From the NCBI GenBank assembly GCA_002840645.1, contig PHBO01000012.1:1-63132 (forward strand): DNA of 63,132 nt, read 5' to 3'. This stretch comes from Candidatus Cloacimonetes bacterium HGW-Cloacimonetes-3 (lineage in GTDB: Bacteria > Cloacimonadota > Cloacimonadia > Cloacimonadales > Cloacimonadaceae). The notes below the pieces were generated by a model, which saw only the letters and a program-made list of their open reading frames with translations, was not told the origin of the DNA and did no database searches. The position numbers were made by a program, and so were the translations under genes. Positions 37,653-61,189 of the stretch are shown one piece after another. Within the stretch, counting starts at the first letter, position 1, and each line of letters begins with the position of its first letter.

Positions 37653-38267
37653 CTATCGACTGTATTTTCTTAATACATCCACTAAACCATTAGCAGATTT
37701 GCCCTCATCGATTCCTTGTCCTATGGTCTGGAAACTCCACCCGTCGCCATCTCTGGTGAGACTTGCCATTTCCATGGCTGGTGGAGGTACAATGACTTCT
37801 CTCAGATCATAACTACACAGCAGCTGGGACCCATTCGGGACTTCACTGTACAGTTTTACATTCGCACTTACCTCGATTGGATCAAAACCCTTGTTTGGAT
37901 TGCATAAAAACAGGGTTAATACGGCTAAAATCGTATGAGTCTTGACTGACACTCTGCTAAGATCTATGAGAATGATTTCATCACATTCATCTCCATCATG
38001 GCACTCAGACACACCCTCATGATTATCCCCGGTATGCTTTATTGCCCCATCGTTTGATTCTCTTTTATTGTAGAAGACAAGTGAGTCATCTGCCCACATC
38101 ATTCCGTCATTTCCCAAGAGTACAATTGAACCATCCCAGTCAACTTCAATATCGGGCTTAAAGTCCCAAGATATGTCAAGCCGGACTTTCTGCATTGGTT
38201 CTCCCTTGTTTATAAGTCTCAGCTCGTCGGCAGTGAGCTTCTCACCTCTGTTTAATGCGATAGACAT
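37653..38267 (-). CDS. TerD-family protein, divergent
   Basis: This 204-residue member of the TerD family has the calcium-binding core in altered form. VDWDGSIVLLGNDG replaces DYDLDASAFLL..., and IKHTGDN precedes an acidic ECHDGDECDEIILIDL in place of SGDDRTG. The final strands VYxx/LCSYDLREVIVPPPAMEMASLTRDGDGW follow the family pattern. It is the most 3' Ter gene of the cluster and the most divergent of the four TerD copies. TerD proteins bind calcium and are linked to chemical stress and phage resistance. Confidence 0.8.
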   Translation of the reverse strand: MSIALNRGEKLTADELRLINKGEPMQKVRLDISWDFKPDIEVDWDGSIVLLGNDGMMWADDSLVFYNKRESNDGAIKHTGDNHEGVSECHDGDECDEIILIDLSRVSVKTHTILAVLTLFLCNPNKGFDPIEVSANVKLYSEVPNGSQLLCSYDLREVIVPPPAMEMASLTRDGDGWSFQTIGQGIDEGKSANGLVDVLRKYSR

Positions 38268-38430
38268 GATTTACTCTCTTTGTTATACTGACAACTCTGC
38301 ATAAATTCACAAATGATTGTATATATGCATTTTAGTCGTTTTGTACTTGAACATTACTCGTACAACTTAAGGGCTGTTGAATGATTGGATGTGAATCTTA
38401 ACATATATAGTAAAGCCAATTCTATGTATG

Positions 38431-38634
38431 TTATATAGAGAAAATTCCGATTATAACAAACGATATAGAGATAAAAATAAATATTGTGATTAAACAACCA
38501 CCACCTGATACAATCCTTCCAATTTTCTGCTGTCGCCCTGACTTAGTAAGAGGAATACCAATTTTTCTACTAATCCTGGCCTTTGCAGCGGATACTCCGA
38601 GCAACCTACTCCAAGAAAAACCACCTTTGTTCAT
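38431..38634 (-). CDS. Small single-pass membrane protein in the Ter cluster
   Basis: This is a 67-residue protein starting at ATG 38634, chosen because GAGGAG lies 9 bases upstream (an earlier GTG at 38655 would include that site). The N-terminal part is basic and conserved-looking (FSWSRLLGVSAAKARISRKIGIP, TKSGRQQKIGRIVSGGG). A C-terminal transmembrane helix follows (CLITIFIFISISFVIIGIFSI). It would sit in the inner membrane with a cytoplasmic basic domain. No known family comes to mind. Its place between TerD and vWA genes suggests a membrane anchor for the system. Confidence 0.65.
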   Translation of the reverse strand: MNKGGFSWSRLLGVSAAKARISRKIGIPLTKSGRQQKIGRIVSGGGCLITIFIFISISFVIIGIFSI

Positions 38635-38742
38635 ATTATCATTCTCCTCAACCACTTTTGCTGGTTGCGCATTATTATCGTTATGCCATTCAACTAATCT
38701 GGATTCAGTTTATACTCTAAAATATAAATATGAAACAACACT

Positions 38743-39366
38743 TCACACAATCACTATTTCTTCTGGAATGGGAACCAGGCCTGATTCCGGTTGACGATTC
38801 GCTATGCTATCTACGCTCACTTGAATTGATTGTGATACCCATTTGAAGTACTCAATAAGTCCATTTGTATCACCCGATTCGATAAGAATAGCTGTATGTC
38901 CAACGCGTGCAAGTGTATCTCTAGTTACATTGTGACCCAATCCGCAAGCTATTACATTTGCTACTCCATCAGTTTTCAATGCGTCAGCGGCAATTTTCCA
39001 GCCATCGGTTGGGTGACCATCTGTCAATATAAAAACCAGTGGTTTATAATCCCCTCTCACTTCTTGTGTTGATCTGACAAAATTAGACTCCGTCTCTAAC
39101 TTAACTAATTTCAAAGCCGCCCCCAATGAAGTGCGCCCATGGACAGACAATTCCGGTAGTCTTACTTGTAAAATCTCTGTAAGGGGGACAACAGTTTTCG
39201 CCTCGGTACCAAATTCCATTAACGATAACCAAACAGTTTCCAGAGCCATCGGGTTGCTTCTTAGGTCTTTTATCAATGATTGAAGGCATTGATTAATAAC
39301 CTTTATCGGTTCACCCCTCATTGAGCCAGAAATATCTATGACCAGGTAAACTGCTAGTTTTCGCAT
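38743..39366 (-). CDS. TerY-like vWA protein (copy 1)
   Basis: This 207-residue stand-alone von Willebrand A domain starts at ATG 39366 (GGAG upstream). MIDAS metal-site motifs are complete: DISGSMRGEPI near residue 11, a Thr in GRTSLGAAL near 86, and LTDGHPTD near 124. It ends in SGLVPIPEEIVIV, a short tail shared in character with the other copies. TerY proteins act as scaffolds that bind partners through the metal site. It is one of five vWA genes in this cluster. Confidence 0.88.
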   Translation of the reverse strand: MRKLAVYLVIDISGSMRGEPIKVINQCLQSLIKDLRSNPMALETVWLSLMEFGTEAKTVVPLTEILQVRLPELSVHGRTSLGAALKLVKLETESNFVRSTQEVRGDYKPLVFILTDGHPTDGWKIAADALKTDGVANVIACGLGHNVTRDTLARVGHTAILIESGDTNGLIEYFKWVSQSIQVSVDSIANRQPESGLVPIPEEIVIV

Positions 39367-39451
39367 TTTAATCTCCACTCATAATGATAGTAGGTTGTTT
39401 CTTATATTCAAAAATCTGAGAGTTAACTACCTTGCAATAAACCAAATACTC

Positions 39452-40873
39452 TCATCTTCTTTTTCCAAAATACTCATAATTGACTAACCATGCTGCGGCG
39501 TTTTTAACATATCTTCCTGTTCCTGCTGTATCCCAGTTGCAGTATAGTTTAGTAAAACCTCCGTCAAGGATAGCCCTTTTATTGTTGTTGTCATATACTA
39601 CAATTGCCGGATGCCCCTCAGAGCTATATAGTATTGTGGTGAACAAGTTGTGGTGTGGGAATTGGGCAATAGTGATTCCTTCATACAAGAAATCTATTCC
39701 AAAGGTAACGGCATGCTCTATGAAGCCTCCTGCTTTGGAAGAATCCTTTTTAGTCAGTATTTTATTTCCCATTTCACAACCTGACATATCAATGCCAAAG
39801 AGTTTTCTGGAGATTGCATCTGCGTCTGCGTGAAATGGATCATTATCTCCCCACAGGTATAATCCCTTTCCAGAATTATAAAAATCGCAGATGATATCAA
39901 TATGCTGCTGAGATAGTTTTGGGTAAGTGTCGGATATCAACCATAATTGACAACACGTTTCCAGAACATGTTTCAGTTCTGATGAAGAAGGTGGATTATC
40001 CGCCCATCGATGGATAGAAAACCCTTTTTCATGCAATGCCCTTTCAGGGGCCTTAAAATCAAAACCTTCACCTGTATAGAGGTGTAATATGGCAATCTGG
40101 TAGCCCTCGAAAGCCCCGTCTTTAGCCAGGTCAAAGTCGCTGCCTTCGATGTTCCCAAACTTGTCCTTGTTCAAAGCCCGCTGTCGGTCAAATGTGTTAT
40201 AGGGATTCAGTGATTGTTCGTTGCCTTTTCGCAGCTCTGTTGCCTTCTTTATATCGGCGGGAAGTTGGGGTAGTTCGTCTAGTGATCCCACCTCCTTCTT
40301 CTGCTCGATTTTCTGACTGCTGGTGCTAATACTGGCTGAAACCCACTGAAAGAAAGACTGGGCAGTTGCCTTGTCTAGTTTGTTCAGCTCCAACACATTG
40401 TCCGTGATGGATTTCAAGACGATAGTGTTGGCGTCAGATCCGGCAGCGCAGGCCACTATGATTCCGGTTGTGGTATTCTTGAGGGCTTTGATTGCGCTTT
40501 CAAACTCATCCGTGGGTTCGCCATCTGTTAGCAGGAACACAATAGGTTTCCAATCTCCTTTGGATTCTAAAGTCGTTTTTACAACTTCCTTGTTGATTTT
40601 GTCCACAAGAATCTTGATTGCGTGTCCCATTGATGTTCCTACACCCTCGGCTTTCAATGCAGGGGCCTGGAATTTAACCAGCTCAGTAAGGGGTAAGATT
40701 TGCTGGGCAGTTGGACCGAAGGTGATAATACTTAGATATGCAGTTTCAAGAGCATAGGGGTTTTGGCGTAAGGTAGATACAAGAATCTGTAATCCGTCCT
40801 GAAGTGCTTGGATCGGCTCACCACGCATAGACCCCGAGACATCCAGCAAGAGGTAAATTGGGAGTCTTCTCAT
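39452..40873 (-). CDS. vWA domain fused to a glutamine-amidotransferase-like domain
   Basis: This is a 473-residue two-domain protein. Residues 1-195 are a TerY-like vWA domain (DVSGSMRGEPIQ, GVGTSMGHA, LTDGEPTDEF). After a linker, residues about 245-470 form a Rossmann-like domain of the class I GATase/ThuA type. It shows YQIAILHLYTGEGFDF, CCQLWLISDTYPKLS, ICDFYNSGKGLYLWGDND, HPAIVVYDNNNKRAILDGGF and a final VKNAAAWLVNYE. The nucleophile-elbow position reads LYLWGDN with no cysteine, so it is probably a non-catalytic or ligand-binding version. It lies between the small gene at 40894 and vWA copy 1. Confidence 0.82.
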   Translation of the reverse strand: MRRLPIYLLLDVSGSMRGEPIQALQDGLQILVSTLRQNPYALETAYLSIITFGPTAQQILPLTELVKFQAPALKAEGVGTSMGHAIKILVDKINKEVVKTTLESKGDWKPIVFLLTDGEPTDEFESAIKALKNTTTGIIVACAAGSDANTIVLKSITDNVLELNKLDKATAQSFFQWVSASISTSSQKIEQKKEVGSLDELPQLPADIKKATELRKGNEQSLNPYNTFDRQRALNKDKFGNIEGSDFDLAKDGAFEGYQIAILHLYTGEGFDFKAPERALHEKGFSIHRWADNPPSSSELKHVLETCCQLWLISDTYPKLSQQHIDIICDFYNSGKGLYLWGDNDPFHADADAISRKLFGIDMSGCEMGNKILTKKDSSKAGGFIEHAVTFGIDFLYEGITIAQFPHHNLFTTILYSSEGHPAIVVYDNNNKRAILDGGFTKLYCNWDTAGTGRYVKNAAAWLVNYEYFGKRR

Positions 40874-40893
40874 AATAACCTCACTTTCCGTGA

Positions 40894-41070
40894 TTATTTG
40901 TTATACAGCCAAGCTTCTGCCATTCGCATTGCGTCGGACGCTGATGAGGCTTTGCCCACCCTTGTCCAGCCGCCCCAGTTCACGTAAACTTCCTTGGAAT
41001 AGGAATCCCATTTCACATCGTAATCTTTACGGCTACCAGACTTCACTTTACCAATTATTGTGGAAGACAT
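40894..41070 (-). CDS. 58-residue Trp-rich small protein
   Basis: This small gene has AAGGAG 7 bases before ATG 41070. The product reads SSTIIGKVKSGSRKDYDVKW, then YSKEVYVNWGGWTRVGKASS and SDAMRMAEAWLYNK. The predicted form is three beta strands plus a C-terminal helix, with no signal peptide. It lies 20 bases upstream of the vWA-GATase gene in the same direction, so it is probably cotranscribed. The regular strand-helix pattern and ribosome-binding site argue that it is real. Function unknown. Confidence 0.7.
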   Translation of the reverse strand: MSSTIIGKVKSGSRKDYDVKWDSYSKEVYVNWGGWTRVGKASSASDAMRMAEAWLYNK

Positions 41071-41186
41071 TTTTTACTCCTTTATAAGAAAGACATTTAT
41101 CAATGTTTAGCGAATATAAGCTACCACAATGCAACCAATGGATTTGCATCATACTCCAGGCATATTTCGAAAGATAGACCATATCT

Positions 41187-42191
41187 CTAACCTATTGTCT
41201 GATCTGTAGAAAATGAACCTACTGAATAATCAAGTGTCAGACCGCATGTAGGGCATGTGTTTCTCAGCTGATCATCTGGTATGCAAAGCAATGCTCCACA
41301 AGCACACTTACCCCATATAGTGTTTCCACAATAGGGACAAGATGAGTCACCAAGGAGTTCTTCGACTGGTATAGGTGGCATTTTTTTGCTTTGTTCGCTT
41401 GTGAATTCCTTGTTTAAGGGATGAGATGACACGAAACCATAGTTTTGCCCATCAATCAACCTATATCGCATTAAATACGGTCGTTTGTTTTTTTGGCATT
41501 TACACGGGATGAAGACTTGCCGCTGTTTCCCCTTGGGAATTTCTCTGACCTCTTCCACTTTCTCAAGCACTTCCGGTGCTAGATCAGTCAGATTCACGTT
41601 ATTATCGTATTTATCTCCAGATCCAATACTTGAACCTACAGACTGAATAGATGCTGAAATACAAACAAAAAGCTTGGTAAAAGTATCTACGGTCGTTTGC
41701 TCCATTAAATATGTGTTATCCGTTAACTGTTTAAGAACAGACAGATCAACGTCATCACCACAACCTATGGCATAGACCATCGCACTGGGGTGGTTCTTCC
41801 GGAGACTCGCAGCTTCATTTTCCCAATTGTCTGTGGGTTGACCATCCGTGAGGATGAAGACAATCGGCTTATAGTCCCCTTTTTGTTCGGATGTGGTTTT
41901 TACCACTTCTCTGGACAAACAATCATTTAACAATCTAAGTCCAGCACCAAGTGACGTTCCTGGTGATACCTCAAGATCCGGTACCACAAAAGTAAAAACA
42001 TCTTTTAAAGAACACAGTTGCTGGGCTTTGTCGGCAAAAGTAATGATGCTAATATACGTAATCTCAAGCGAATATGGGTTTTGTCTTAATGCTGACATCA
42101 TTGCCTTGATGCCAGCATGAACTGAATCTAATGCAATTCCAATCATCGATTCTGATGTGTCAATCAATAGATAGACTGGTAAACGTCTCAT
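41187..42191 (-). CDS. terY: TerY protein with C-terminal zinc ribbon (TerY-P triad)
   Basis: This is a 334-residue protein. Its vWA domain (residues 1-190) has DTSESMIG, PGTSLGAG and LTDGQPTDNW. It then has a TerY-C-type metal-binding module (about 225-325) with CKCQKNK, SSCPYCGNTIWGKCACGALLC and TCPTCG. This vWA + zinc-ribbon form is the partner of a kinase and a PP2C phosphatase in the TerY-P triad. Here those two genes are directly upstream (15 and 11 base gaps). GGAGG precedes the ATG. Likely role: a phosphorylation-regulated scaffold. Confidence 0.9.
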   Translation of the reverse strand: MRRLPVYLLIDTSESMIGIALDSVHAGIKAMMSALRQNPYSLEITYISIITFADKAQQLCSLKDVFTFVVPDLEVSPGTSLGAGLRLLNDCLSREVVKTTSEQKGDYKPIVFILTDGQPTDNWENEAASLRKNHPSAMVYAIGCGDDVDLSVLKQLTDNTYLMEQTTVDTFTKLFVCISASIQSVGSSIGSGDKYDNNVNLTDLAPEVLEKVEEVREIPKGKQRQVFIPCKCQKNKRPYLMRYRLIDGQNYGFVSSHPLNKEFTSEQSKKMPPIPVEELLGDSSCPYCGNTIWGKCACGALLCIPDDQLRNTCPTCGLTLDYSVGSFSTDQTIG

Positions 42192-42206
42192 TTCATTACC
42201 TCCTCA

Positions 42207-43724
42207 TCAATTCTGTACCAATTGAACTTGAATCAGCCTTCCCCCTTCATCCTCAGACAATAGAATCTGACGTCCTTCAGTCAATTGTATATGTTCGTTA
42301 GGTTTTATGATCTTTTTATTGTCCGTGATATCTATCATTTTTGGAATAGATTGATTAACCAGATACCAAAAATTGTTGTGAAACTGAAAATAGGCTACGG
42401 CCTTTTTCTGATCAGGTTTCAGTTTCTCATTGGGGAAGACATTCCTATTGACGTGCCAAGGATAAATCCTAGTTCCATTGAACACCATTAAGCGATGATT
42501 GTCCAGTTTGAATGAAGACCCCCGTTTTGAATAGAAGTTTAGAACAGGCATCATCCCCTTATAAACGGTATTACAAAACGGGCAAATTGGTTTGGTGGTA
42601 TTGTCGAATACAAACCACTTCTGTTCACATTTTGGGTTTTGGCAGGGTTGTAGCAAGTCAATGGTTCGCACGATCGCGTCTTCCCAATCATTAGCGGATG
42701 GTCTTGCAGACGGATTATGCAAACCATCCATGAATGCTTGCCTGACAAGTTGACTAATATATGGTCCCAATATTGTATACGGTCGTTTATCAAGATCCAT
42801 CCAGGGTGCAATATACGGGTAACGATTTGCTGGCTCGTTTTTTTTAACCCATTTAATGTCATAGCGGTTACTTGTATCCTTGTTGCTTTCAACAAAAAGA
42901 GCTTTTTCCCCCATAGCTAGCTCTTCATCTCTGTTTTCATCATTCATATCATGGACCTTCTTACCCCTCAGCGGATGCCTGCAGAGCAAATACATATATA
43001 TCAGGACAGCTAAGGCATGCATGTCCGTCTCTCTCTTTGGAATCTTCTTTGACTTGTCACTGATCTTGAGTTTAAGAGTCTGCATGACTTCAGGAGCAAT
43101 GAAGTCCGGGGTACCGACCACATCGGGAGGAAACTTGCCAGGTACGACTAAACCGTCAATGTCAATTATACATGCTTTCACAGATACAGGATCAATCAAG
43201 ATATTTTTGTATGAGAGGTCAGAATGTGATAACCCCGCTGCGTGCATTCTGCGGATAGCCCGTGATATCAGCAGGCAGATATTGAGATAGCTTCGCCAAT
43301 CACCAATTTCACGTTTATCGAGATTACAATATCTATGCCAAGGATTAGCGAACCATTTTCCCTCTTTTTCCCTTCCTTTAATATCTATTACTGGTGTACT
43401 CGATCCATGTGTAAAGAAAAACTCTTGAGCATATGTTGGAACTAAAACCCCAGTTTTCCCATTATACTCAACTATCTTCTCTGGCCAACAGAAGAGATTC
43501 TTCCAATACTCTCCGCCATCTTGTGAAAATATACTATCTCGATACTTTCCTACTATGTGCTCTAATCTTTCTTTACCATACACGTCAAGTTTATTGCGAA
43601 AGAAGCCAACGACATGGCGTCTATCCTCAGTAAAATATACATCTTTTACCCCTCCCTGTCCTATCATCTTATCATCAAAGGTAATTTGTGTACCATCTGT
43701 TGCTTTGATTTTAACTAAGGCCAT
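42207..43724 (-). CDS. TerY-P-type Ser/Thr protein kinase with zinc ribbon and FHA-like tail
   Basis: This is a 505-residue kinase. The lobe signatures are GQGGVKDVYF (glycine loop, about 23-32), HSDLSYKNILID (catalytic loop) and CIIDIDGL (metal-binding Asp in place of DFG). GTPDFIAPEVM forms the P+1 region and DMHALAVLIYMYLLCRHP follows. After the kinase domain come a CxxxxC...CPFC knuckle (PCQNPKCEQKW, PICPFCN, about 358-385) and a ~110-residue beta-rich domain of FHA-like pattern (YFQFHNNFWYLVNQ, IKPNEHIQLTEGRQILLS). It would phosphorylate TerY or partner proteins. It is sandwiched between terY and the phosphatase gene. Confidence 0.9.
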   Translation of the reverse strand: MALVKIKATDGTQITFDDKMIGQGGVKDVYFTEDRRHVVGFFRNKLDVYGKERLEHIVGKYRDSIFSQDGGEYWKNLFCWPEKIVEYNGKTGVLVPTYAQEFFFTHGSSTPVIDIKGREKEGKWFANPWHRYCNLDKREIGDWRSYLNICLLISRAIRRMHAAGLSHSDLSYKNILIDPVSVKACIIDIDGLVVPGKFPPDVVGTPDFIAPEVMQTLKLKISDKSKKIPKRETDMHALAVLIYMYLLCRHPLRGKKVHDMNDENRDEELAMGEKALFVESNKDTSNRYDIKWVKKNEPANRYPYIAPWMDLDKRPYTILGPYISQLVRQAFMDGLHNPSARPSANDWEDAIVRTIDLLQPCQNPKCEQKWFVFDNTTKPICPFCNTVYKGMMPVLNFYSKRGSSFKLDNHRLMVFNGTRIYPWHVNRNVFPNEKLKPDQKKAVAYFQFHNNFWYLVNQSIPKMIDITDNKKIIKPNEHIQLTEGRQILLSEDEGGRLIQVQLVQN

Positions 43725-43735
43725 GACATCTCCTA

Positions 43736-45217
43736 TTAATACATGATTACTATTGTTCGATCGTCATGGTTGCCAGGTGACCAGAAGTCAAGCCAGTCAA
43801 GTAATGCCTTTGCAGTTGACTCATTTCTTGTAGAAAAATTAACCATTATATTCATCTCTTCCCAAAGCGAGTGCCACACTTCAATTTTATTTAAATTGTT
43901 TTCAGTTTCAAAAATGGGGTCGGTCACACCATCTGACATGAGGACTAAGCAGCGGAAGTTTTTTACCAAATTGAAGCGCAGACGACGGTCAACAATTTCA
44001 TGGTAAGTTCCAGCCCAGACTTCATTCATTGTTAAAAAGCGGGTTTGCCCTCCATAAGTCCCCACATCTGGTTCGCCCTGAACAATTACTTGATTTTCGT
44101 CAGGGCTGTATATTCCTATCCCCCCGTCACCCACCCAATAAGACGCGATGAACCATCCTTGCTTCATGCGTTTGGCAACTGAAATCAATAAGGTTGTTGC
44201 ATAGTCTTTTGTATCTATCATTACATTGTTGCTACTAGCTAATGCCAGACTACTTAGTTTTGCGAGCTTTGTTCTTTCCAAATCAATGTTTTGTTTTGAC
44301 TGAAAAGCTGCGTTAACTATTATGCTCTTGTAAAGTAGTGCACGAAGATTGTTGTATCCTTCTTCTTCACCCAATTGCCACTTATCAACATAAGTTTCAA
44401 TCTTTCTCCAGAATTCTTTATCTGCTTGTGACTTAATCTGGTTTACAGCTGTTTGGACAGCAATTTGAGATCCTTTGCGGGAGAATTTAGCACTTCCAGC
44501 TCCATCAGCAACAGCGATAACTGCATAAAGGAGGTTGTTATCGTAATACATCTCAAAGTCATCATCACGAAAACGCCCATCTTGAGCGTGTGATCTGCCC
44601 CTCTTACTGGCGCCGATCAAGGAGAGGTTCTCATCGCAGTTGATTATGCGAAAATTGGTGTCGGGTTTATAATAGGGATCAGTTTCATCAGAGGGTATAT
44701 TTTTCCATAGGGTTTTAGGATCGGGGTTAACAATCAGATGCATGGGTAAGGTGTGTAATTCAATAAACTCATTACCGGTGACCTTTCTGACTAAAATGAA
44801 ATCGTACTCTCCCGGAGTTGTGGTCACACATGAAAATCTATAAGTTTCTGCATCAAATGTGACTAATATTTGCTCATTGTCCTCAGAAACATTCTTTACT
44901 TCGTAAGTTTCTTTTTCAGTTCTTTCGTTCTTAGAGAAAAAAGAACCAGTAAGATGTTTCTTTAAGTCAATATCGTAGTAGTCTCCAGCAATATTTAGAT
45001 TTGGCAGATTGATCCTAGGATGGTCAATGTGCTTTTCTTCAGGCTTTAACTCTGTTACGGTTTTAGTCTCTATTTGCGCAATCTGCTTTAGGGCTTGCTT
45101 TTTTAAGAGATAGTCATATAATCTAGGTTGTAAGTTTGAGAGATGAAATCCAACCCCCACTATACGCTTTATCTTGTATTTTTTTTCCTTTAACACTTTT
45201 GTGACATCGTTTCCCAA
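43736..45217 (-). CDS. PP2C-family protein phosphatase (TerY-P triad)
   Basis: This 493-residue protein starts at a TTG (45217) with a strong GGAGGAG site. The N-terminal ~210 residues are an unassigned beta-rich region (GEYDFILVRKV). The PP2C domain follows: GRSHAQDGRFRDDDFE, VIAVADGAGSAKFSRKGS (metal-binding Asp-Gly), TLLISVA, YWVGDGGIGIY, and LVLMSDGVTD. It would reverse the neighbouring kinase's phosphorylation. Kinase, phosphatase and zinc-ribbon TerY on one transcript are the core of the TerY-P system tested as antiviral by Gao and colleagues (2020, from memory). Confidence 0.9.
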   Translation of the reverse strand: MGNDVTKVLKEKKYKIKRIVGVGFHLSNLQPRLYDYLLKKQALKQIAQIETKTVTELKPEEKHIDHPRINLPNLNIAGDYYDIDLKKHLTGSFFSKNERTEKETYEVKNVSEDNEQILVTFDAETYRFSCVTTTPGEYDFILVRKVTGNEFIELHTLPMHLIVNPDPKTLWKNIPSDETDPYYKPDTNFRIINCDENLSLIGASKRGRSHAQDGRFRDDDFEMYYDNNLLYAVIAVADGAGSAKFSRKGSQIAVQTAVNQIKSQADKEFWRKIETYVDKWQLGEEEGYNNLRALLYKSIIVNAAFQSKQNIDLERTKLAKLSSLALASSNNVMIDTKDYATTLLISVAKRMKQGWFIASYWVGDGGIGIYSPDENQVIVQGEPDVGTYGGQTRFLTMNEVWAGTYHEIVDRRLRFNLVKNFRCLVLMSDGVTDPIFETENNLNKIEVWHSLWEEMNIMVNFSTRNESTAKALLDWLDFWSPGNHDDRTIVIMY

Positions 45218-45239
45218 GTTCTCCTCCTTTAAGCCATCG

Positions 45240-45875
45240 CTAAATTACAACTTCTACTTCAGATGGAGGCGGAGGTAATGTCAGCTCGATACTCGTCCCT
45301 ACACTTTGAGAACCACTCATTATCGAAGCACTAACCCATTTGAAGTATTGCTCAAAAGTAGCACTATCACACGTGTCAAGCCTCACGACACTCGATGCTA
45401 TGAGTTGTAATGATATAGTATCAGCTTTCATGCCTGCAGCGCAACCTGTGATAATTGCGAAGTTCCTTTTTTTACATTCAGGTATCATCTCGTTGAACAT
45501 CTTTGTGTCAGAGGGTTTACCATCAGTCATGATAAACAGTAGAGGTTTCCAGTCTTTTTTTACTTTATCACTTGAGAGTATCACTTCTTTGTCTACTTGC
45601 TGGCATAAGACTCCCAATGCTGCGCCTAACATGGTTGGTCCAGAATCTGGCATTTCAATCTCCGGTATCTGGAGGGATTCCAAGGATGTAAGTGGGAGAA
45701 TTACTTTTACCTCACGATCGAAAGTAATAATACTAATGAAAACAGTCTCTAAGGCTTGTGGATCTCTCCTCAAAGTAGATATTAGAGTTTGAATCCCACA
45801 CCTTACAGCTTCTATAGGTTCACCTTTCATTGATCCTGAAGTATCCAATAACAGATATACAGGCAATCTCCTCAT
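45240..45875 (-). CDS. TerY-like vWA protein (copy 4)
   Basis: This 211-residue stand-alone vWA domain is preceded by AGGACTG. MIDAS motifs are DTSGSMKGEPIEAVRCG, a Thr in GPTMLGAALG and MTDGKPSD. It ends in a proline-rich tail (LPPPPSEVEVVI), like copy 5 (LPPPPPEINMV), a feature that may be a docking peptide. It starts 31 bases after copy 5 and precedes the phosphatase gene. Confidence 0.88.
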   Translation of the reverse strand: MRRLPVYLLLDTSGSMKGEPIEAVRCGIQTLISTLRRDPQALETVFISIITFDREVKVILPLTSLESLQIPEIEMPDSGPTMLGAALGVLCQQVDKEVILSSDKVKKDWKPLLFIMTDGKPSDTKMFNEMIPECKKRNFAIITGCAAGMKADTISLQLIASSVVRLDTCDSATFEQYFKWVSASIMSGSQSVGTSIELTLPPPPSEVEVVI

Positions 45876-45906
45876 ATTGCAGTCCTAATATTCATGAGCC
45901 AAAATC

Positions 45907-46542
45907 CTATACCATGTTTATCTCTGGTGGAGGGGGAGGTAACTGGTCAACACCGATCTCTTGCTTTGTGTCGTTTACACTTTTGCTACTGGTCGATATA
46001 GAGCTGGATACCCACTTAAAGAATGCGGCAAGGGATTGTTTGTCAGCAGTATCCAACATCACCACGCTTTCCGGGCTTATTGCTTTCAAAGTGTTCACAT
46101 TAGCACCCTGTCCTGCCGCACAACTTACTGTAATTCCCCATTTCATTGTTTGAAATTCGGCTAATCCCTTGTTAAAATCATCCGTAGGTTCTCCATCTGT
46201 CATGATAAATACCAGAGGTCGCCAGTCACCTTTGACTTCAGGAGTCGATTTGACAATCTCGGTTTTTGCGCATTGACACAGTAATGAGAGTGCTTCCCCT
46301 AATGCAGTTGTTCCCGAAGCCACAATATCCGGCATTTGGAAGGAAGCAAGATCGGTTAAGGGTACTAACTGTTTTGCACTACTGTCAAAAGTAATAACGC
46401 TGAGATAAGCAGATTCTAATGCTTGGGGATCTTGGCGTAAGCCTGATAATAACATTTGCATTCCACTTTTAACTGCTTCAATTGGCTCTCCGGACATTGA
46501 ACCGGAGCAGTCGAGTAATAGGTAAACTGGTAGTCTACGCAT
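45907..46542 (-). CDS. TerY-like vWA protein (copy 5)
   Basis: This is a 211-residue vWA protein. ATG 46542 is used because AGGAGAAA lies just upstream; the longer frame to 46638 overlaps the preceding TerD gene. The motifs are DCSGSMSGEPIEAVKSG, GTTALGEALSLL and MTDGEPTDDF, and the C-terminus ends in a polyproline tail. It is closely similar to copy 4, suggesting tandem duplication. It lies between TerD genes and the triad. Confidence 0.88.
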   Translation of the reverse strand: MRRLPVYLLLDCSGSMSGEPIEAVKSGMQMLLSGLRQDPQALESAYLSVITFDSSAKQLVPLTDLASFQMPDIVASGTTALGEALSLLCQCAKTEIVKSTPEVKGDWRPLVFIMTDGEPTDDFNKGLAEFQTMKWGITVSCAAGQGANVNTLKAISPESVVMLDTADKQSLAAFFKWVSSSISTSSKSVNDTKQEIGVDQLPPPPPEINMV

Positions 46543-46568
46543 TTGATTTCTCCTATGTCTTTTGATAA

Positions 46569-47129
46569 TTATTGATATCTTTGCAGGAAGTAATCTAGCT
46601 CTTGGGGGTAACCGACTCCGATTGCTTCGAACTTCCACTCATTGTTCTTTCTGTACAGTCTCCCAAACTCAACAGCGGTTTCTACAGAGAAGTCTTCATC
46701 AAGCTCATATTTACAGATTTCCTCATTTGTGACACCGTCTAAAATTCGAATGTATGAATTTCTAACTTGCCCAAAATTCTGTTTTCTTGCAACGCCTTCA
46801 TGAATCGTTACAATGAATAGAATCTCTGATATTTTTGGGTCTACTTTTGATAACTCAATCTTGACGATCTCATCATCACTGTCTGCACTACTACCACCAG
46901 TTCTGTCATCACCTGAGTGAGTGACAGCTTTATCAGCTGAAACTGGATTATTATAGAATACAAAGAACTCTTCATTTGGTATCTTGCCTGAAGAATCTAG
47001 CATAAACACAGACGAGTCCAGATCGAAATCAACTCCTGTGCCTGTTTGATTTGGATTCCAACCCAAACCAATGTGAACTTGACTAAGCCCTATCTCAATC
47101 CGTTGTCCTTTAGTTAGTGATATAGCCAT
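46569..47129 (-). CDS. terD: TerD calcium-binding stress protein
   Basis: This 186-residue protein has the canonical TerD architecture: HIGLGWNPN, DFDLDSSVFMLDSSGKIP, FVFYNN, HSGDDRTGG (calcium-binding loop residues), KISEILFIVTIHEG, FGQVRNSYIRI, ICKYELDED and a final VGYPQELDYFLQRY. It is about 50-60% identical by eye to the copy at 48518-49078. TerD proteins are cytosolic or membrane-associated calcium binders required for tellurite, colicin and phage resistance in ter plasmids. The order here is terB, terD, terA-like, terD, terD, terY. Confidence 0.95.
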   Translation of the reverse strand: MAISLTKGQRIEIGLSQVHIGLGWNPNQTGTGVDFDLDSSVFMLDSSGKIPNEEFFVFYNNPVSADKAVTHSGDDRTGGSSADSDDEIVKIELSKVDPKISEILFIVTIHEGVARKQNFGQVRNSYIRILDGVTNEEICKYELDEDFSVETAVEFGRLYRKNNEWKFEAIGVGYPQELDYFLQRYQ

Positions 47130-47164
47130 AATACATCTCCTTATATAGTTGATATGTAAGAATG

Positions 47165-47779
47165 TTATTTTACGTAGCGCTTAAGAATCTCAACAAAGGC
47201 ATCTGTATCTTCAGGATCGCCAAGAGCTCTAAACTTCCATTCACCTCCCCTACGATACAGCTCCGCAAAAATCATACTATGTTTACCATTGTAACTGGAG
47301 TCTGTTGAGAGATCATAGCGGAACATTTCCGTCCCTTTAGCGTCAACGGCTCTAATAAATGCATTTTCTACCATACCGAAGTGCTGATTTTTTTTGATCC
47401 CCTGGTATATAGTGACAATGAATATGATTTTATCATATCGTGGGGGAATCTTATTTAGTAGGCAGATTATCTGTTCATCGTCTCCCTCTCCCTCTCCGGT
47501 TCTGTTGTCTCCCGTTAGCCAAATAGATCCACTGGGATGCTTTAGACTATTGAAAAACACAACATCACCGCCAATGAGTTTATCCCCTAGATCTGCTACT
47601 TTACCATCACTATCCAGAAGAAATGCAATTGCATCTAGATCATAATCCTCAACTTTAGGCGAAAAGAGACCTCTTTTTTCCTTTCGTACATCCCACCCAA
47701 GACCGATAGTTACCTGTGACAGATCGTTCTGCTCTTTGTTTAAATTGATAGTCTGTCCTTTCTGTAAACGAATAGCCAT
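47165..47779 (-). CDS. terD: TerD-family protein with insertion
   Basis: This 204-residue TerD protein has a ~12-residue insertion after the first strand (IGLGWDVRKEKRGLFSPKVEDYDLDAIAF). The calcium-site motifs are DYDLDAIAFLLDSDGKV and LTGDNRTGEGEGDDEQI; then KIIFIVTIYQG, FGMVENAFIRAVD, MFRYDLS. This longer form resembles the TerE/TerX-type paralogues. It lies 35 bases upstream of the next terD. Confidence 0.92.
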   Translation of the reverse strand: MAIRLQKGQTINLNKEQNDLSQVTIGLGWDVRKEKRGLFSPKVEDYDLDAIAFLLDSDGKVADLGDKLIGGDVVFFNSLKHPSGSIWLTGDNRTGEGEGDDEQIICLLNKIPPRYDKIIFIVTIYQGIKKNQHFGMVENAFIRAVDAKGTEMFRYDLSTDSSYNGKHSMIFAELYRRGGEWKFRALGDPEDTDAFVEILKRYVK

Positions 47780-47832
47780 AGCTCATACTCCTTGTTAAGT
47801 ATTATTACATCAATTAGGTTTCATCACATTAC

Positions 47833-48495
47833 TTATTTGCTTCCAGCATGCCACTGTAGGCCCCAACCATAGGCTTTATCGCATTCAGCATGACCAGTAT
47901 GAAATGTAAGAAGCTTCTTTACTGTGATGGAATCAGTTGCATCTAATAGAATTTCAGCGATTGCGCAGAATTTTAGGGTGCTATTTTGTTTTCCCATTTC
48001 GACAACAATATCAGGATTTTCTGGAACTTTAACTGTTACAACAGCGTTAGTTTCCATCCACTTTGCTACTCCGTCGTAAATGAAACAATAGACGATAATC
48101 CTCTTTAATTCTTTGATTCCCTTTGGGTTTACAAGGATGTTTTCGCCATCTCCAGCACCAGAGCGATCATCACCTGAGTGCCAAATCCAGGGGGCTCTTG
48201 TGAGACATCCTTGCTTTGTAGCTCTTTCTCGTGGACCTCCCTGGTTATGTGCAAACTGGATTCCATCGATCACCATTTTCTCTCCAGATCGCAATTCATA
48301 GAAGCATCCCAAATCCAAGTCTATACCTTGCGAACTGTTTAACAGGTTTGCAAAGAATCCTTTTTTTGCCACTTCCTGTGTCCAGTTTAAGTTGATGATG
48401 ATTTCACTGGTTGATGTTTGAGATTCCTTGCTAAGTACGATACGATGCGAATCACCTCGATTTTCTAAAGTAACTTTTTTTAACTCGATTGCCAT
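47833..48495 (-). CDS. TerA-like member of the TerD superfamily
   Basis: This 220-residue protein has TerD-fold features but a TerA-like pattern. It has a long N-terminal strand pair (VTLENRGDSHRIVLSK), IINLNWTQ, then IDLDLGCFYELRSGEKMVID. A calcium-loop variant is present (WHSGDDRSGAGDGENILVNP), followed by KRIIVYCFIYDGVAKW and a C-terminal AYGWGLQWHAG. In classic ter operons TerA partners TerD. It sits between two terD genes at 53- and 22-base gaps. Confidence 0.85.
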   Translation of the reverse strand: MAIELKKVTLENRGDSHRIVLSKESQTSTSEIIINLNWTQEVAKKGFFANLLNSSQGIDLDLGCFYELRSGEKMVIDGIQFAHNQGGPRERATKQGCLTRAPWIWHSGDDRSGAGDGENILVNPKGIKELKRIIVYCFIYDGVAKWMETNAVVTVKVPENPDIVVEMGKQNSTLKFCAIAEILLDATDSITVKKLLTFHTGHAECDKAYGWGLQWHAGSK

Positions 48496-48517
48496 GATAT
48501 CCTTCTCTGGTTATAAA

Positions 48518-49078
48518 TCAAGTATATTTCTGAACGAAGAAATCCAATTCTTGGGGATATCCTACACCCATTGCTTCAAATTTCCATTCATTATCGCGTT
48601 TGTACAACCTGCCAAATTCAACAGAGGTTTCGATTGAGTAGTCCTCGTCCAAATCGTATTTGCATATCTCTTCGTTAGTATTGGCATCGTAAATCCTTAT
48701 ATAAGAATTCCTAACCTGACCGAAGTTTTGTTTTCGGTTCTTACAATCATAAATGGTGACAACAAAGATTATCTGCTCGATTTTCGGATCAATTATATTC
48801 AGATCTACTGTCAAAGTCTCATCATCTCCACCATCGCTGTTCCCTCCCGTTGTATCATCACCTGATGATTCAACAGATCCATCTGGAGATTTTTGATTGT
48901 TGTAAAACACAAAATACTCATCACGAGGTATTTTGCCACCAGCATTAAGAAGGAAGGCAGATGCATCCAGGTCATAATCGTATGTTGATGCATTTGGATT
49001 AGGATCCCATCCTAATCCAACGCATACCTTAGATAGGCCAATTGACAGTCTCTGTCCCTTTTGTAATTGAATAGCCAT
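48518..49078 (-). CDS. terD: TerD calcium-binding stress protein
   Basis: This is a 186-residue canonical TerD: CVGLGWDPNPNASTYDYDLDASAF, GGKIPRDEYFVFYNN, SSGDDTTGGNSDGGDDETLTVDL, then FVVTIYDC, FGQVRNSYIRIYDA and VGYPQELDFFVQKYT. The repeated Asp clusters are the expected calcium ligands. It lies 43 bases after the terB-like gene and is nearly colinear with the copy at 46569-47129, so the pair arose by duplication. Confidence 0.95.
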   Translation of the reverse strand: MAIQLQKGQRLSIGLSKVCVGLGWDPNPNASTYDYDLDASAFLLNAGGKIPRDEYFVFYNNQKSPDGSVESSGDDTTGGNSDGGDDETLTVDLNIIDPKIEQIIFVVTIYDCKNRKQNFGQVRNSYIRIYDANTNEEICKYDLDEDYSIETSVEFGRLYKRDNEWKFEAMGVGYPQELDFFVQKYT

Positions 49079-49121
49079 GTTCTCTCCTTTTTAAACTTTA
49101 TTAGCGAAGAATATATCTGGG

Positions 49122-49499
49122 TTATGCGCCACACTCTTCACAGAGTTTGTTGAAACTCGGCTGGACTTTATTTGCAGATTTCTGAAGATCTCTTAAGAAT
49201 TCCAACTCATATTTGTCGATTTTCCCATCCGCATACAAGACAGATCTTATCAACTCAGTCTCAGCGGCATCAATTTCTCCATCAGCCAGCAGATAAGCTT
49301 TGAAGGATTCAAAAAAGAATTTCTCAAACACTTCACATGTCGATGTTGCAGATTTACGCAATCCTATCAAGAAATGCATCTCCTCTTCATCAACAATACC
49401 ATCATCCAGAATCTCTGACTTCAAGAGACTCGTTTCTGAGCTGTCAATACAGCCATCCTCAAGCAATAGTGATGCGGCTAGTTTTTTCCAGTTTGCCAT
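49122..49499 (-). CDS. TerB-like protein
   Basis: This 125-residue protein starts at ATG 49499 (AAGGAGAAAATC upstream). It is all-helical, with repeated acidic segments (LLLEDGCIDSSETSLLKSEIL, DDGIVDEEEMHFLIGL, LADGEIDAAETELIRSVLYADG). These give a TerB-like fold with two metal-binding D-G-x-I-D loops per half. TerB proteins bind divalent metal and associate with membrane TerC. No TerC is present in this window; the P-type ATPase immediately upstream takes its place in the gene order. Confidence 0.85.
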   Translation of the reverse strand: MANWKKLAASLLLEDGCIDSSETSLLKSEILDDGIVDEEEMHFLIGLRKSATSTCEVFEKFFFESFKAYLLADGEIDAAETELIRSVLYADGKIDKYELEFLRDLQKSANKVQPSFNKLCEECGA

Positions 49500-49548
49500 G
49501 ATTTTCTCCTTGTATTTTAGTTTTGTTCGATTCACGGTTATTAATGCT

Positions 49549-52380
49549 TCATTTCAAAGCAGCGACAGAATTCCGAATACCTTTTCTGATTAGATCAAAC
49601 GGAATAATTGTCATTGCAAATAATACTACGATTGAAAGCTCATAAAGAGACAGGGGCGCAGTTCTAAAGATGGCACCACCAAAATAGATCAAGACAATCT
49701 GAACGATAAAAATCAGACTGAACACCCAGAGGAATCCTTGGTTTTTCGTTATATTTGAAATGAAATTTATGCCTTCTTCTCTTGAATTCAGTAGATTAAA
49801 AAGGTTCAAATATACGAAGAATGTGAAGAAAGCTGTTAAAAATCCAATTTCATTTTGATAGAATATGCTGCTTGAATTACTTGAATTCATGTACACCAGA
49901 AATAGCATTGAGCATAATGCAATATATATCCCCTTTGAGAAAATTGATGACCACATATCTCCATTAATTATTCTCTCATCTCGAGATTTTGGCTTTTCCA
50001 GCATGTGTTTTTCAAGAGGCGGTTCCCCACTTAACGCCAACGCAGCCAAGGTATCCATGATTAGATTGATCCACAGAAGCTGTGTCATTGTAAGAGGTAA
50101 TCTTACACCAAAAAAGGGACCCAGAAGAAGGATTAAAATTGCACCTGCGTTTACTGTAAGCTGATAATTAATAAACTTCTGAATAGACCTATAAATTGAT
50201 CTGCCATAGTGCACTGCATGAGCTATGGATTCTACATTGTCATCCAGAATTATCAGATGTGAAGCCTCTTTGGCGACCTCAGTTCCACTTCCAATGCCTA
50301 TGCCGATATCTGACGCTTTAAGAGCCACAGAATCGTTAACTCCATCTCCAGTCATACCAACAACAAGTCCAAGCTCTTGCGCTATTCGCACCAACCTTTT
50401 TTTATCAAAAGGGGTACAGCGAGATACTATGCGTAGAGAAGGAAGAATCAGCTTGAGTTCATCATCAGACATATTTGCCAATTCACTGGATTCGATTGTT
50501 TTTTCTGATTCGTGTTTGATTAAATTCACATCTTTAGCTATTGCTCTTGCCGTACCGAGCTTATCACCTGTGCTCATTACAACGTGAATGCCAGCTCCAT
50601 GCAATCTATTAATTGCTCCATAAGATTCAGGTCTGAGATCATCGCGGATAGCTATAAAACCAAGCATTACCATATCGGAAGGGAGTGATTTATCATCATC
50701 AGGATGGCATTGGCAATATGTAAAAGCTATCATTCTGTATCCGTCGTCTGCTTTTTTATCAAGATAATCATTAATCTTGTTCCTAAGCCCTTCGTCTACA
50801 ACAACAATGCTCCCATCACTCGCATGATACCTGTTACTTTTTGCCAGGAGTAGTTCTGGTGCTCCTTTCACGCAGGTAAAGGCATCCTCTTGTATTATTA
50901 ATTCGCAGAGAGAGTACTTCAGTGTTGAGTTAAAAGGTACGTGTTTAACGATTGTCACATCATCATATAGTGCTGTCTGACAATCTGCTCTTACAAAAAT
51001 AGCTAGTGCTTTTTCTGTAGCATTGCCGCCAACAAGGCAATCAGTTTTTTTATCGGCTGCTAAATTCACAACACAGGATGTGTTTTCACGTACAGACAAA
51101 TCGAGCATTTTTCTTACTGATTCTGGAACAAGGTTGAAATCATCATAGGAACATATAATGTCCCTATTATCATTAGAAAACCCCGCAAAATAAACAGGAT
51201 CTAATTGACCCTTAGTGATAGTTCCAGTTTTGTCACAAAAAAGTAAGTTAAGGCTACCCGCGGTTTCGATACCCACGTTTTGCCTAACAAGAACTTTACT
51301 TGCGAGAAGCTTTTTCATATTTCTTGCCAGAACCATCGCAATCATCATGGGTAATCCTTCCGGTACGATCACTACTATTACTATTACTGCCAAAATAACA
51401 GCAGTTACAAAGTCATGCAAAGCCTTGGGAATATTATGAAAGTATTGAATTATGGCGGTTTTATCGTAGCCATTATCTATAATTGCAGTCTTGAAGAAAA
51501 ATACTAACGCAATAACAATCGCTCCAATATAGGCAACCGTAGCAATGTGCTTGGCAAGCAAATTTAGTTTTTCTTTTAATGGCCCCTCTTGTTTGGTTTC
51601 ATTGATTTCTGAAATACGGGTCTGGTCTATGGTAACGACTTTATTATCAACAACGACTTTTACGAATTTGCTATCTTTATCAGGAATTCGTATACCCCGA
51701 ACGGTTGAGACGTCCTTAAGACTAATAGTAACTTCCTGGCCTAACTCCATAGCTAATTTTCCTAAAACGGTTTTATCGCCCACTTCTTTTACAATAACGA
51801 TCCCTTCGCCATCTTCAACCGTAGTTCCTCTAAAAACTGCAGATGCTTTTTCATAATTGGTGAAATCTCCAGAATCATTCCCAGGAGATTTTTTTACGGG
51901 GTTAGCTTCTCCATTCAGAAGTCCCTGATTAACTTCAATAATTCCCTCTAATACGAGACAATCTGCAGGAACTTTGTCACCTGGTTGTAGTAAAATATGG
52001 TCACCAACCACTATATCATTAATAGGAAGAGTGACAAGCTGGTTATTGCGAAACACTTTGACAAATATACGCGATGCTTCTTCCTGCAACCTCTGGAAAG
52101 TTTGATCATTTCTGTATGTTGAGTATGTAGATACCAGAGTTGCTATCAAAACAGCCGCAGCGATTCCTACACCTTCATACCAAGCTGCATATTTCAAAAA
52201 AGCCAATATAATTGTTATCAAGAGGGAAATACACAAAATTATTATCATAGGGTCTTGAAAATTACCCCAAAGTTCTTCCCAAAAAGAAGCTCCCTTTTGG
52301 GGACTTATCTCATTTGAACCACTTCTCTCACGGGAAGCTTTTACTTCTACATCATTCAGACCTTCATAATTACTAAGCAC
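49549..52380 (-). CDS. Calcium-transporting P-type ATPase (PMCA/SERCA class)
   Basis: This 943-residue P2-type ATPase starts at a GTG (52380) 6 bases after AAGGAG. The phosphorylation site is Asp383 in CDKTGTITKG, the M4 ion-site motif is VPEGLPMMIAM, and the hinge is MTGDGVND. The actuator loop reads LLNGEANPV, where LTGES is usual; the essential Glu is kept. About ten membrane helices are visible, including VIALVFF, ILLLGPFFGVRL and WVFSLIFIVQI. It is expected to pump calcium out of the cytosol. It heads the Ter cluster and its product's ion matches the TerD ligand. Confidence 0.93.
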   Translation of the reverse strand: MLSNYEGLNDVEVKASRERSGSNEISPQKGASFWEELWGNFQDPMIIILCISLLITIILAFLKYAAWYEGVGIAAAVLIATLVSTYSTYRNDQTFQRLQEEASRIFVKVFRNNQLVTLPINDIVVGDHILLQPGDKVPADCLVLEGIIEVNQGLLNGEANPVKKSPGNDSGDFTNYEKASAVFRGTTVEDGEGIVIVKEVGDKTVLGKLAMELGQEVTISLKDVSTVRGIRIPDKDSKFVKVVVDNKVVTIDQTRISEINETKQEGPLKEKLNLLAKHIATVAYIGAIVIALVFFFKTAIIDNGYDKTAIIQYFHNIPKALHDFVTAVILAVIVIVVIVPEGLPMMIAMVLARNMKKLLASKVLVRQNVGIETAGSLNLLFCDKTGTITKGQLDPVYFAGFSNDNRDIICSYDDFNLVPESVRKMLDLSVRENTSCVVNLAADKKTDCLVGGNATEKALAIFVRADCQTALYDDVTIVKHVPFNSTLKYSLCELIIQEDAFTCVKGAPELLLAKSNRYHASDGSIVVVDEGLRNKINDYLDKKADDGYRMIAFTYCQCHPDDDKSLPSDMVMLGFIAIRDDLRPESYGAINRLHGAGIHVVMSTGDKLGTARAIAKDVNLIKHESEKTIESSELANMSDDELKLILPSLRIVSRCTPFDKKRLVRIAQELGLVVGMTGDGVNDSVALKASDIGIGIGSGTEVAKEASHLIILDDNVESIAHAVHYGRSIYRSIQKFINYQLTVNAGAILILLLGPFFGVRLPLTMTQLLWINLIMDTLAALALSGEPPLEKHMLEKPKSRDERIINGDMWSSIFSKGIYIALCSMLFLVYMNSSNSSSIFYQNEIGFLTAFFTFFVYLNLFNLLNSREEGINFISNITKNQGFLWVFSLIFIVQIVLIYFGGAIFRTAPLSLYELSIVVLFAMTIIPFDLIRKGIRNSVAALK

Positions 52381-54346: not shown

Positions 54347-54364
54347 TTTATTCCTCCTTTTCGG

Positions 54365-56186: not shown

Positions 56187-56229
56187 GAGTTCTCCTTAAT
56201 GCATTATTTTTTTCTATTTATGACGAGAT

Positions 56230-57309: not shown

Positions 57310-57317
57310 TTACCCTC

Positions 57318-59150: not shown

Positions 59151-59164
59151 CCTAGCCTCCACCC

Positions 59165-59999: not shown

Positions 60000-60512
60000 T
60001 CATGCTTTCAAACATATTAATCTGTAGCACCCAATCCTATTCAAACTCCGGAGTTGACCCAATATACCTTTCTGGACTTTTCTTCCGATTTTGGGCACAT
60101 TTTGGCGTGAAATAACCACATATATGAAGCCTCTCATATCTACCACTTCAATTGATGCCAGCGCCTCCAGATAGATATAGACCCACTGTCTGGATTTACC
60201 GATGTCTTGAGCAATATCTCGGATGGACTTGTATCTGCCTTGTTCCAGGATGTCCAGAAGCTCGTGAGCGTCTGTTAAGCTGAATGTCCAGCCCTTGTAA
60301 TGCTGATAACCGATCCTTGCTTGGTAGCGATTGGCTCGGACATAGATTGGAGGACTATCTTCTATCTGCTTGATCGCCTGGCTTTGGATCAGTTCCGGTA
60401 GTAGACTCTCTATAGCGTTGATGCTCATATTGGTCAACTGGGCTATTACCTCAGCATTAAAGGGTCGATCATACTGGTTGACGAAGTTGAGGATTAGTTC
60501 TTTCTCTGTCAT
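60000..60512 (-). CDS. Winged-helix/HTH DNA-binding protein of the transposition operon
   Basis: This 170-residue protein contains two helix-turn-helix regions. The first is at residues 15-50 (FNAEVIAQLTNMSINAIESLLPEL) and the second at about 95-120 (SIRDIAQDIGKSRQWVYIYLEAL). The C-terminus is basic. The start overlaps the GAGG region at the end of the MuB-type gene, so it is cotranscribed with the transposition genes. It could be a regulator or target-site accessory factor. No specific family is recognised. Confidence 0.7.
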   Translation of the reverse strand: MTEKELILNFVNQYDRPFNAEVIAQLTNMSINAIESLLPELIQSQAIKQIEDSPPIYVRANRYQARIGYQHYKGWTFSLTDAHELLDILEQGRYKSIRDIAQDIGKSRQWVYIYLEALASIEVVDMRGFIYVVISRQNVPKIGRKVQKGILGQLRSLNRIGCYRLICLKA

Positions 60513-60519
60513 GCCATCC

Positions 60520-61180
60520 TCAATTATCCAGATCAGCTTGAGTGATCAGTTCAAGGTTCTTGTAGATACCGATCTCTTCCACTGAGCGGATCAGTTTCAT
60601 GGCTTTTCGGACATTGCCACAAGAGTGGAAGTGGACATATTCGACTATGTTCGGATGGAAATTGATCTCCAGAATCTCACTGCACAGCTGTGCAATATCC
60701 TTCTTAGGCAGGTCTTGGAACTCATAGAAGAAGTTGCATCTATCAAAGTAATACTCATTGATCTGGTTGAGCTTATCCTTGGCATTCTGCATCCCGACCA
60801 GGATCACTATCGCTGAAGGCATAGTCTATCTCATCAACCACGATGATCGTATCAGGGTGGTCTTCCAGTGTCGATAAGCATAGCATAAAGAGGTCATTGG
60901 CTGTTCCGTATGGTATGTACTCTCCCATGCCAAACCTCTTGTATAATGCTAAGAGAAGCTTGGAGGCAAATGCTTTGGGCGTGGTAGTGGCTTCAAGTCT
61001 GAGATAGACATAACCTTTACTGAAGGCGATCCTACTGGCATAAGTGGTCTTTCCCAGTCCCGGTCTGCCATACAGCAAGCCAAGTCCCACCATCTCCAAT
61101 TTGGGTCGATTTAGAAGGTATTCTATGCATTTATCGGCAGCGACTACGTTCTGAGTCCTGACAAGTTTTCCCTGTTTCAT
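60520..61180 (-). pseudogene. MuB/TniB-type transposition ATPase, broken
   Basis: The first frame (ATG 61180, AGGAGG upstream) encodes LLYGRPGLGKTTYASRIAF (Walker A, residues 36-54) and TIIVVDEIDYAF (Walker B), then goes out of frame and stops at 60773. A second frame resumes at about 60815 with AIVILVGMQNAKDKLNQINE, CNFFYEFQDLP and a C-terminal helical lid. Between Walker B and AIVILVG about 15-20 residues expected in the family are missing. A small frameshifting deletion at about 60810-60822 has therefore inactivated it. MuB-type ATPases select targets and activate the transposase. Confidence 0.8.
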
Positions 61181-61189
61181 TATTACCTC

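Follow-up and report, generated by a model that had tools for sequence, protein, structure and literature searches.

Do the genes at positions 37653-52380 of contig PHBO01000012.1 from Candidatus Cloacimonetes bacterium HGW-Cloacimonetes-3, all on the minus strand, form one working system, and what kind of system would that be? The window analysed, 63,132 bases long, is one whole contig (C21) of a 2.67-Mb assembly. The original prediction, a reading of the letters and reading frames, had listed five von Willebrand factor A (vWA) proteins, a kinase, a PP2C phosphatase, four TerD proteins, one TerA-like and one TerB-like protein, a Ca2+ ATPase and two small genes on a single strand, which proved right almost gene for gene; the two small genes are probably the open reading frames (ORFs) of 58 and 74 aa listed in Table 1. 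It had interpreted them as an expansion built around the kinase-phosphatase-TerY triad, which Gao et al. 2020 reportedly found to be antiviral, and Anantharaman et al. 2012 are said to have proposed Ter proteins as a calcium-linked stress system.

We find that the cluster is almost certainly a ter-type (tellurite-resistance) locus. Our preferred reading, to which we assign a probability of roughly 0.4, is that it represents a mobile, extended ter stress and phage-inhibition locus in a TerC-less version with a calcium pump, whose products would form a calcium-linked membrane complex switched by phosphorylation.

Identity and conservation of the gene set

The features by which ter clusters are recognised are present in the window: four PF02342 genes plus a TerA-like gene, five PF00092 genes, one of them with PF15616, and a zinc-ribbon kinase together with a PP2C phosphatase. 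The four TerD proteins match Pfam with E-values from 1e-26 to 1e-68. The acidic TerD residues D36, D38, D74, D86 and E87 are invariant across 13 aligned proteins, as are the residues of the metal ion-dependent adhesion site (MIDAS) across 19 vWA proteins. The TerA-like protein has no Pfam match and was assigned by aligning it to the TerD profile with hhalign (probability 96.8%, E=2.9e-10); homologues 64-65% identical to it lie in three Bacteroidota ter loci (L016, L033 and L055). The TerB assignment is indirect, as the window protein is sub-threshold but its homologue in another ter locus (L018) passes the Pfam cut-off, which supports a predicted TerB component. With the GTG at 46638 that was listed as its start, the TerY1-like vWA gene would overlap the TerD gene; a good ribosome site accompanies the ATG at 46542.

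The gene set itself is already known. The classical ter locus comprises terZABCDEF and terWY1XY2Y3 with a phosphatase and a kinase. It is intact on IncHI2 plasmids, where its kinase is 54% identical to that of the window, and the IncHI2A plasmid pSH111_227 carries TerD, TerC, TerB, TerA, TerZ, biosynthetic genes, TerW, vWA, TerD (in the TerX position), vWA, TerY_C, PP2C and kinase. Since duplicated vWA genes, several TerD, TerA and TerB and the kinase-phosphatase pair are all part of classical ter loci, an origin centred on the antiviral triad is not supported: the closest homologues are such loci on IncHI2 plasmids and many chromosomes, and the kinase has a zinc ribbon with four invariant cysteines (C361, C366, C381 and C384). 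The claim that the cluster goes well beyond a three-gene triad therefore stands relative to the triad of Gao et al. and falls relative to ter loci generally.

The same features bear on whether the system is primarily antiviral, of the TerY-P kind of Gao et al. 2020, with the triad sensing infection and the remaining genes acting as effectors or modulators. The kinase, phosphatase and TerY gene types are all there, an IetA-like AAA ATPase and a transposase flank the cluster as in defence islands, and the citing passage of PMC8115787 credits ter loci with the inhibition of some phages and with colicin resistance. However, in the stand-alone antiphage modules described by Gao et al. the kinases have an OB-fold, whereas the zinc ribbon seen in the window kinase belongs to the TerY-P triads of CoCoNuT and ter type (PMC11090510). 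Furthermore, the PADLOC-DB library, which may hold no TerY-P models, gave no TerY-P match for either the window or the IncHI2 proteins, and no nuclease or other evident killing effector was found among the operon proteins scanned. On balance, we regard a primarily antiviral role as rather unlikely.

Scanning 84,980 species genomes for degenerate patterns with a kinase alignment confirmed at least 417 relatives; the 80 best of these were fetched, and six plasmid loci were added to them. The resulting counts refer to flanks of ~10 kb around loci that were picked by kinase similarity, many of them related to one another. In the 58 loci that reach 18 kb, PP2C and vWA genes occur in all (58/58 each), TerY_C in 53, TerD in 52, TerC in 19 and the Ca2+ ATPase in eight; ATP-grasp/PRTase/StiP/HpcH biosynthetic genes were found in 11 and had no match in the window. 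The kinase has homologues of 55-60% identity, and homologues on 2,351 of 72,556 plasmid records (best 59% identical) indicate that ter loci are widespread. The search for co-occurrence of the whole set that had been proposed with the prediction recovered three Bacteroidota loci (L016, L033 and L055) with TerD, TerA-like, TerB-like, vWA, PP2C, kinase and Ca2+-ATPase genes, in the order TerD-TerA-like-TerD-TerD-vWA-vWA-(TerY_C)-PP2C-kinase-TerB-like-ATPase. A further locus (L025) begins with the ATPase and shows the order PP2C-kinase-TerY_C of the window, an order also found in L018. The five vWA genes of the window compare with at most four in the other loci. Every TerD gene in the genome, four in all, is located inside the cluster, and since the set also recurs in other phyla, a chance grouping is excluded; the genes are supported as one conserved, co-directional system, in agreement with the prediction. 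Separately, a 30.8-kb IMG/VR contig (L093) was seen to end in a ter-type vWA-TerY_C-PP2C-kinase set.

Intergenic gaps of 11-116 nt from 52380 down to 38743, ribosome sites ahead of most cluster genes and the lack of any terminator-like site between genes on the minus strand over this interval make a single long transcript plausible; a promoter scan returned sites no more numerous than in shuffles. The spacing also bears on the possibility that two or more independent modules are just stacked together as cargo of a transposon, with an unrelated 3' part (37653-41070) behind a core ter locus (41187-52380). The vWA fusion, the fifth vWA, the divergent TerD and the 58-aa ORF were not met as a unit elsewhere in the loci compared, and the last TerD gene lies 475 nt past the fifth vWA gene. 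Nevertheless, the 3' part is itself made up of vWA and TerD paralogues, two other ter loci contain homologues of its 74-aa gene, and the tight spacing continues down to 38743; we consider such stacking highly unlikely.

The calcium pump, the TerY adaptors and their proposed working

What is unusual here is a Ca2+ pump in the ter operon of a genome without TerC, together with five vWA genes and a vWA protein carrying a fused domain. TerC (PF03741) had no match anywhere in the genome, and the cluster ATPase is the single genomic match to Cation_ATPase_C. It exceeds the NCBIfam cut-off only barely (Table 1), and its DKTGT, PEGLP, GDGVND and M6 NLIMDT motifs are all intact. In a quick tree, ter-linked ATPases fall into two separate clades, one comprising the window, Electronema and Methylococcaceae sequences and the other those of Bacteroidota and Planctomycetes, with unlinked copies intermixed among them. 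The two clades suggest that the ATPase may have been recruited to ter loci repeatedly. In the Methylococcaceae locus (L134:7703-10411), the PMCA ATPase lies 3 bp from an HpcH gene, within a ter locus with TerA, TerB, several TerD and biosynthetic genes. That ter loci contain Ca2+ pumps of two separate clades, and that one such pump is in a genome with no TerC, lends the calcium hypothesis independent support from genomics; the window locus offers a simple system for testing it.

An operon that opens with a P-type ATPase could also be a metal or oxidative-stress resistance locus, in which the pump and the TerD complexes would clear a toxic ion or buffer it, with the kinase pathway acting only as a regulator. 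Tellurite resistance is conferred by classical ter loci (PMC8115787, PMC9933665), and the set is often accompanied by TerC or an ATPase; but this ATPase is of the Ca2+ (PMCA) family and not of the heavy-metal families, and TerC, the usual transporter, is missing. We hold a role of this kind to be doubtful.

The calcium-linked, phosphorylation-switched complex that we prefer starts from the gene content, the motifs, the conservation of the set and the absence of TerC; calcium as the signal, the assembly, the phosphorylation target and the output are what we infer. The TerD, TerA-like and TerB-like proteins would be Ca2+-binding cytoplasmic parts assembling beside a membrane transporter, a role that TerC usually has and that would fall in this locus to the PMCA Ca2+ ATPase. 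The vWA proteins with a MIDAS (TerY1/Y2 and TerY_C) would serve as adaptors, while the zinc-ribbon kinase and PP2C would set the phosphorylation state of either the adaptors or the TerD proteins. A Ca2+, metal or envelope-stress signal would then alter the assembly of the complex.

The best available model for the working of the ter signalling block is, by analogy, the archaeal Arn switch. ArnB is the best match of the vWA family in the PDB both by profile (E 5e-10) and by fold, the structure alignment for the family having been built without plasmid sequences. Together with ArnA (zinc-finger/FHA), the kinase ArnC and the phosphatase PP2A, ArnB makes up an experimentally studied phosphorylation switch (PMC6509490, PMC12852372, PMC7472852), in which phosphorylation by ArnC shifts the ArnA/ArnB complex between loose and tight states (PMC6509490, PMC12852372).

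The short TerY (vWA) proteins share a tail motif, LPPPPPE[IV]x[VI][VIL], that runs to their C-terminus. It was found in 138 of 139 such proteins (132 with the strict pattern and six variants, the 138 being tallied by eye), and the sole protein without it has lost its frame. Alphaproteobacterial tails often have Q instead of E, and L201, P203 and P205 are invariant in an alignment of 49 sequences. In the AlphaFold model of the TerY1-like protein (pLDDT 92.5), the last block scores ~81 and forms a short strand or bridge, and the tail is probably ordered, packed against its own domain or, if domain-swapped, against that of a neighbour. The prediction had proline-rich tails of vWA scaffolds connecting phosphorylation to TerD complexes. 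Such tails are well developed in two of the five vWA proteins, weak in one and internal in another, but absent from the TerY_C protein. This part of the prediction is only half borne out: the tail is near-universal, yet the confident single-chain model gives it an ordered conformation, and binding to TerD would be hypothetical. The near-invariant tail nonetheless provides a concrete mutational target for asking how vWA adaptors link signalling to TerD.

A bolder version would have a TerC-independent ter class with the Ca2+ ATPase as membrane part, in which the TerY proteins are chained by the glutamate of LPPPPPE docking in the MIDAS of a neighbour, the kinase and PP2C open and close the chain, and, in this genome, the extra vWA protein with its fused domain supplies an input or output of its own. 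The MIDAS sites of integrin and midasin are bound by glutamates of their partners (PMC6509490). Taken as a whole, we judge this version quite improbable.

Several points weigh against the calcium-linked complex. TerC and the ATPase do not alternate significantly (21 TerC only, 14 ATPase only, one both and 52 neither; Fisher p=0.10), and these counts are confounded by ancestry. Calcium as the ligand rests on earlier TerD work and on conserved residues. As vWA folds are common, the ArnB match alone is no proof of a shared mechanism, and an FHA domain suspected at the C-terminus of the kinase, in the domain after the zinc ribbon, was not confirmed. Finally, we know of tellurite resistance and phage inhibition only for TerC-containing loci, so the function here may differ.

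Individual genes, mobility and surroundings

Table 1 Features of the ter cluster and of the adjoining transposition genes
Feature	Position	Strand	Basis or remark
PMCA-type Ca2+ P-type ATPase, first gene of the operon	49549..52380	-	TIGR01517, 507.2 bits vs cut-off 507.05
TerB-like protein, four DGx[IV]D acidic loops	49122..49535	-	PF05099 E=0.0015, below Pfam cut-off
TerD	48518..49078	-	PF02342 E=1.5e-68
TerA-like short TerD-superfamily protein	47833..48495	-	Profile match to TerD
TerD, resembling TerX	47165..47779	-	PF02342 E=3.4e-61; alignment with IncHI2 TerX
TerD	46569..47129	-	PF02342 E=9.7e-67
vWA, TerY1-like, intact MIDAS, C-terminal tail LPPPPPEINMV	45907..46542	-	PF00092, alignment
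vWA, TerY2-like, tail LPPPPSEVEVVI	45240..45875	-	PF00092
PP2C phosphatase	43736..45217	-	PF13672 E=5e-33
Ser/Thr kinase, C-terminal zinc ribbon and further conserved domain of ~110 aa	42207..43724	-	PF00069 E=1.7e-12
vWA-TerY_C (TerY3-like), metal-binding protein	41187..42191	-	PF15616 E=1.1e-12 and PF00092
Small ORF, 58 aa, ribosome site AAAGGAG	40894..41070	-	No homologue found
vWA with unique C-terminal domain of ~238 aa (window 39452-40168)	39452..40873	-	PF00092
Fifth vWA, divergent, tail LVPIPEEIVIV	38743..39378	-	PF00092 E=5.7e-15
Small basic protein, 74 aa, hydrophobic C-terminus	38431..38655	-	Homologues in two Bacteroidota ter loci
Divergent TerD	37653..38267	-	PF02342 E=1.6e-26
Tn7/Tn5053-like transposition genes: helix-turn-helix protein, broken TniB-like AAA, TniA/TnsB-like transposase	60000..63124	-	Probable vehicle

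The 238-aa domain fused to one vWA protein had no convincing homologue in plasmids, IMG/VR or phages, where only the vWA part was matched, nor in 125 genomes of the phylum, the 44 host genomes of kinase loci, or three samples of genomes from other phyla (395, 395 and 388). Its best Pfam E-value was 0.14, and its PDB E-values were above 1. A fragment in one locus (L136) resembles the domain over 49 aa (41%) and contains stops. A first reading of its sequence as glutamine-amidotransferase-like is not claimed here, there being no search support and a single-sequence fold with a pLDDT of 33.

In two Bacteroidota ter loci (L044:4524-4703 and L059:5604-5774), a vWA gene is followed immediately by a gene for a relative of the 74-aa protein, these relatives being 56-59 aa long. 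This position makes the protein look like a small, so far unrecognised ter component, seemingly without ter annotation. The family motif, FSWxRxLGxxxAKxRxxRKxGIPxxxxGxxxKIG, is found within ter loci of two phyla, and a Criblamydia plasmid has another, partial match outside ter genes.

The ter cluster is a horizontal acquisition. The GC content is 46% over 1-36000 and 40% over 36400-60000, TerD was met in only two of the 125 phylum genomes compared, and the cluster kinase was not found at meaningful strength in 60 relatives; the locus is thus almost absent from the phylum. The transposase at 61190-63124 carries Mu-transpos_C, and the adjoining TniB-like ATPase gene (60520-61180) is split over two frames, with ~50 nt that are present in six relatives missing near 60815; this copy of the transposition genes may not be active, or the assembly may be wrong here. 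Elsewhere in the genome (G000:C19:217884-219815) there is a transposase with 91% identity, with close relatives in genomes of the family. The ter cluster is likely cargo of a Tn7/Tn5053-like element, of which neither the ends nor any end repeats were recognised.

Between the cluster and the transposition genes lie two groups of other genes. At 55422-59899, four genes encode a PHP domain like the N-terminus of DnaE, an IetA-like AAA ATPase with a long N-terminal extension, and two other proteins. A divergent second copy of this module (L147:14577-19915, 33-51% identity) lies ~15 kb from the second transposase copy, and the module is perhaps a recurrent defence or transposition-linked unit. At 53423-55237, adjacent genes encode proteins of 307 and 290 aa without Pfam matches, the first with a zinc-metallopeptidase-like HELAHAY motif.

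Comparison with known systems

The TerY-P antiviral triad (Gao et al. 2020) resembles the window in that TerY-like vWA, PP2C and kinase genes are adjacent in both, but it is stand-alone and has an OB-fold kinase (PMC11090510), whereas in the window a zinc-ribbon kinase is embedded in a ter operon. CoCoNuT systems of types II and III-A, in which TerY-P goes with McrBC-like and HEPN genes, contain McrB/McrC and CnuH/CnuE, and no such domain was detected among the scanned operon or flanking proteins. The ArnA/ArnB-ArnC-PP2A system, which regulates the archaellum of Sulfolobus, likewise combines a vWA adaptor, a zinc finger with a regulatory domain, a kinase and a phosphatase; it is archaeal, however, has neither TerD nor a pump and draws on another gene set, and it offers an analogy of working, not membership.

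The Bacteroidales loci L016, L033 and L055 share with the window TerD, a TerA-like gene, two more TerD, two vWA, TerY_C (none seen in L055), PP2C, kinase, a TerB-like gene and a PMCA ATPase. They differ in having TerB and the ATPase at the 3' end, in an ATPase of the other clade, in the absence of a vWA fusion and in having three vWA genes at most. Finally, the classical ter locus of IncHI2 plasmids and many proteobacteria has in common with the window two short vWA proteins, vWA-TerY_C, PP2C, a zinc-ribbon kinase, several TerD, TerA and TerB, and it too is mobile. Compared with it, the window locus is devoid of TerC and the biosynthetic genes, and has instead a PMCA Ca2+ ATPase, a short TerA-like protein, a vWA fusion, five vWA genes and the order PP2C-kinase-TerY_C.

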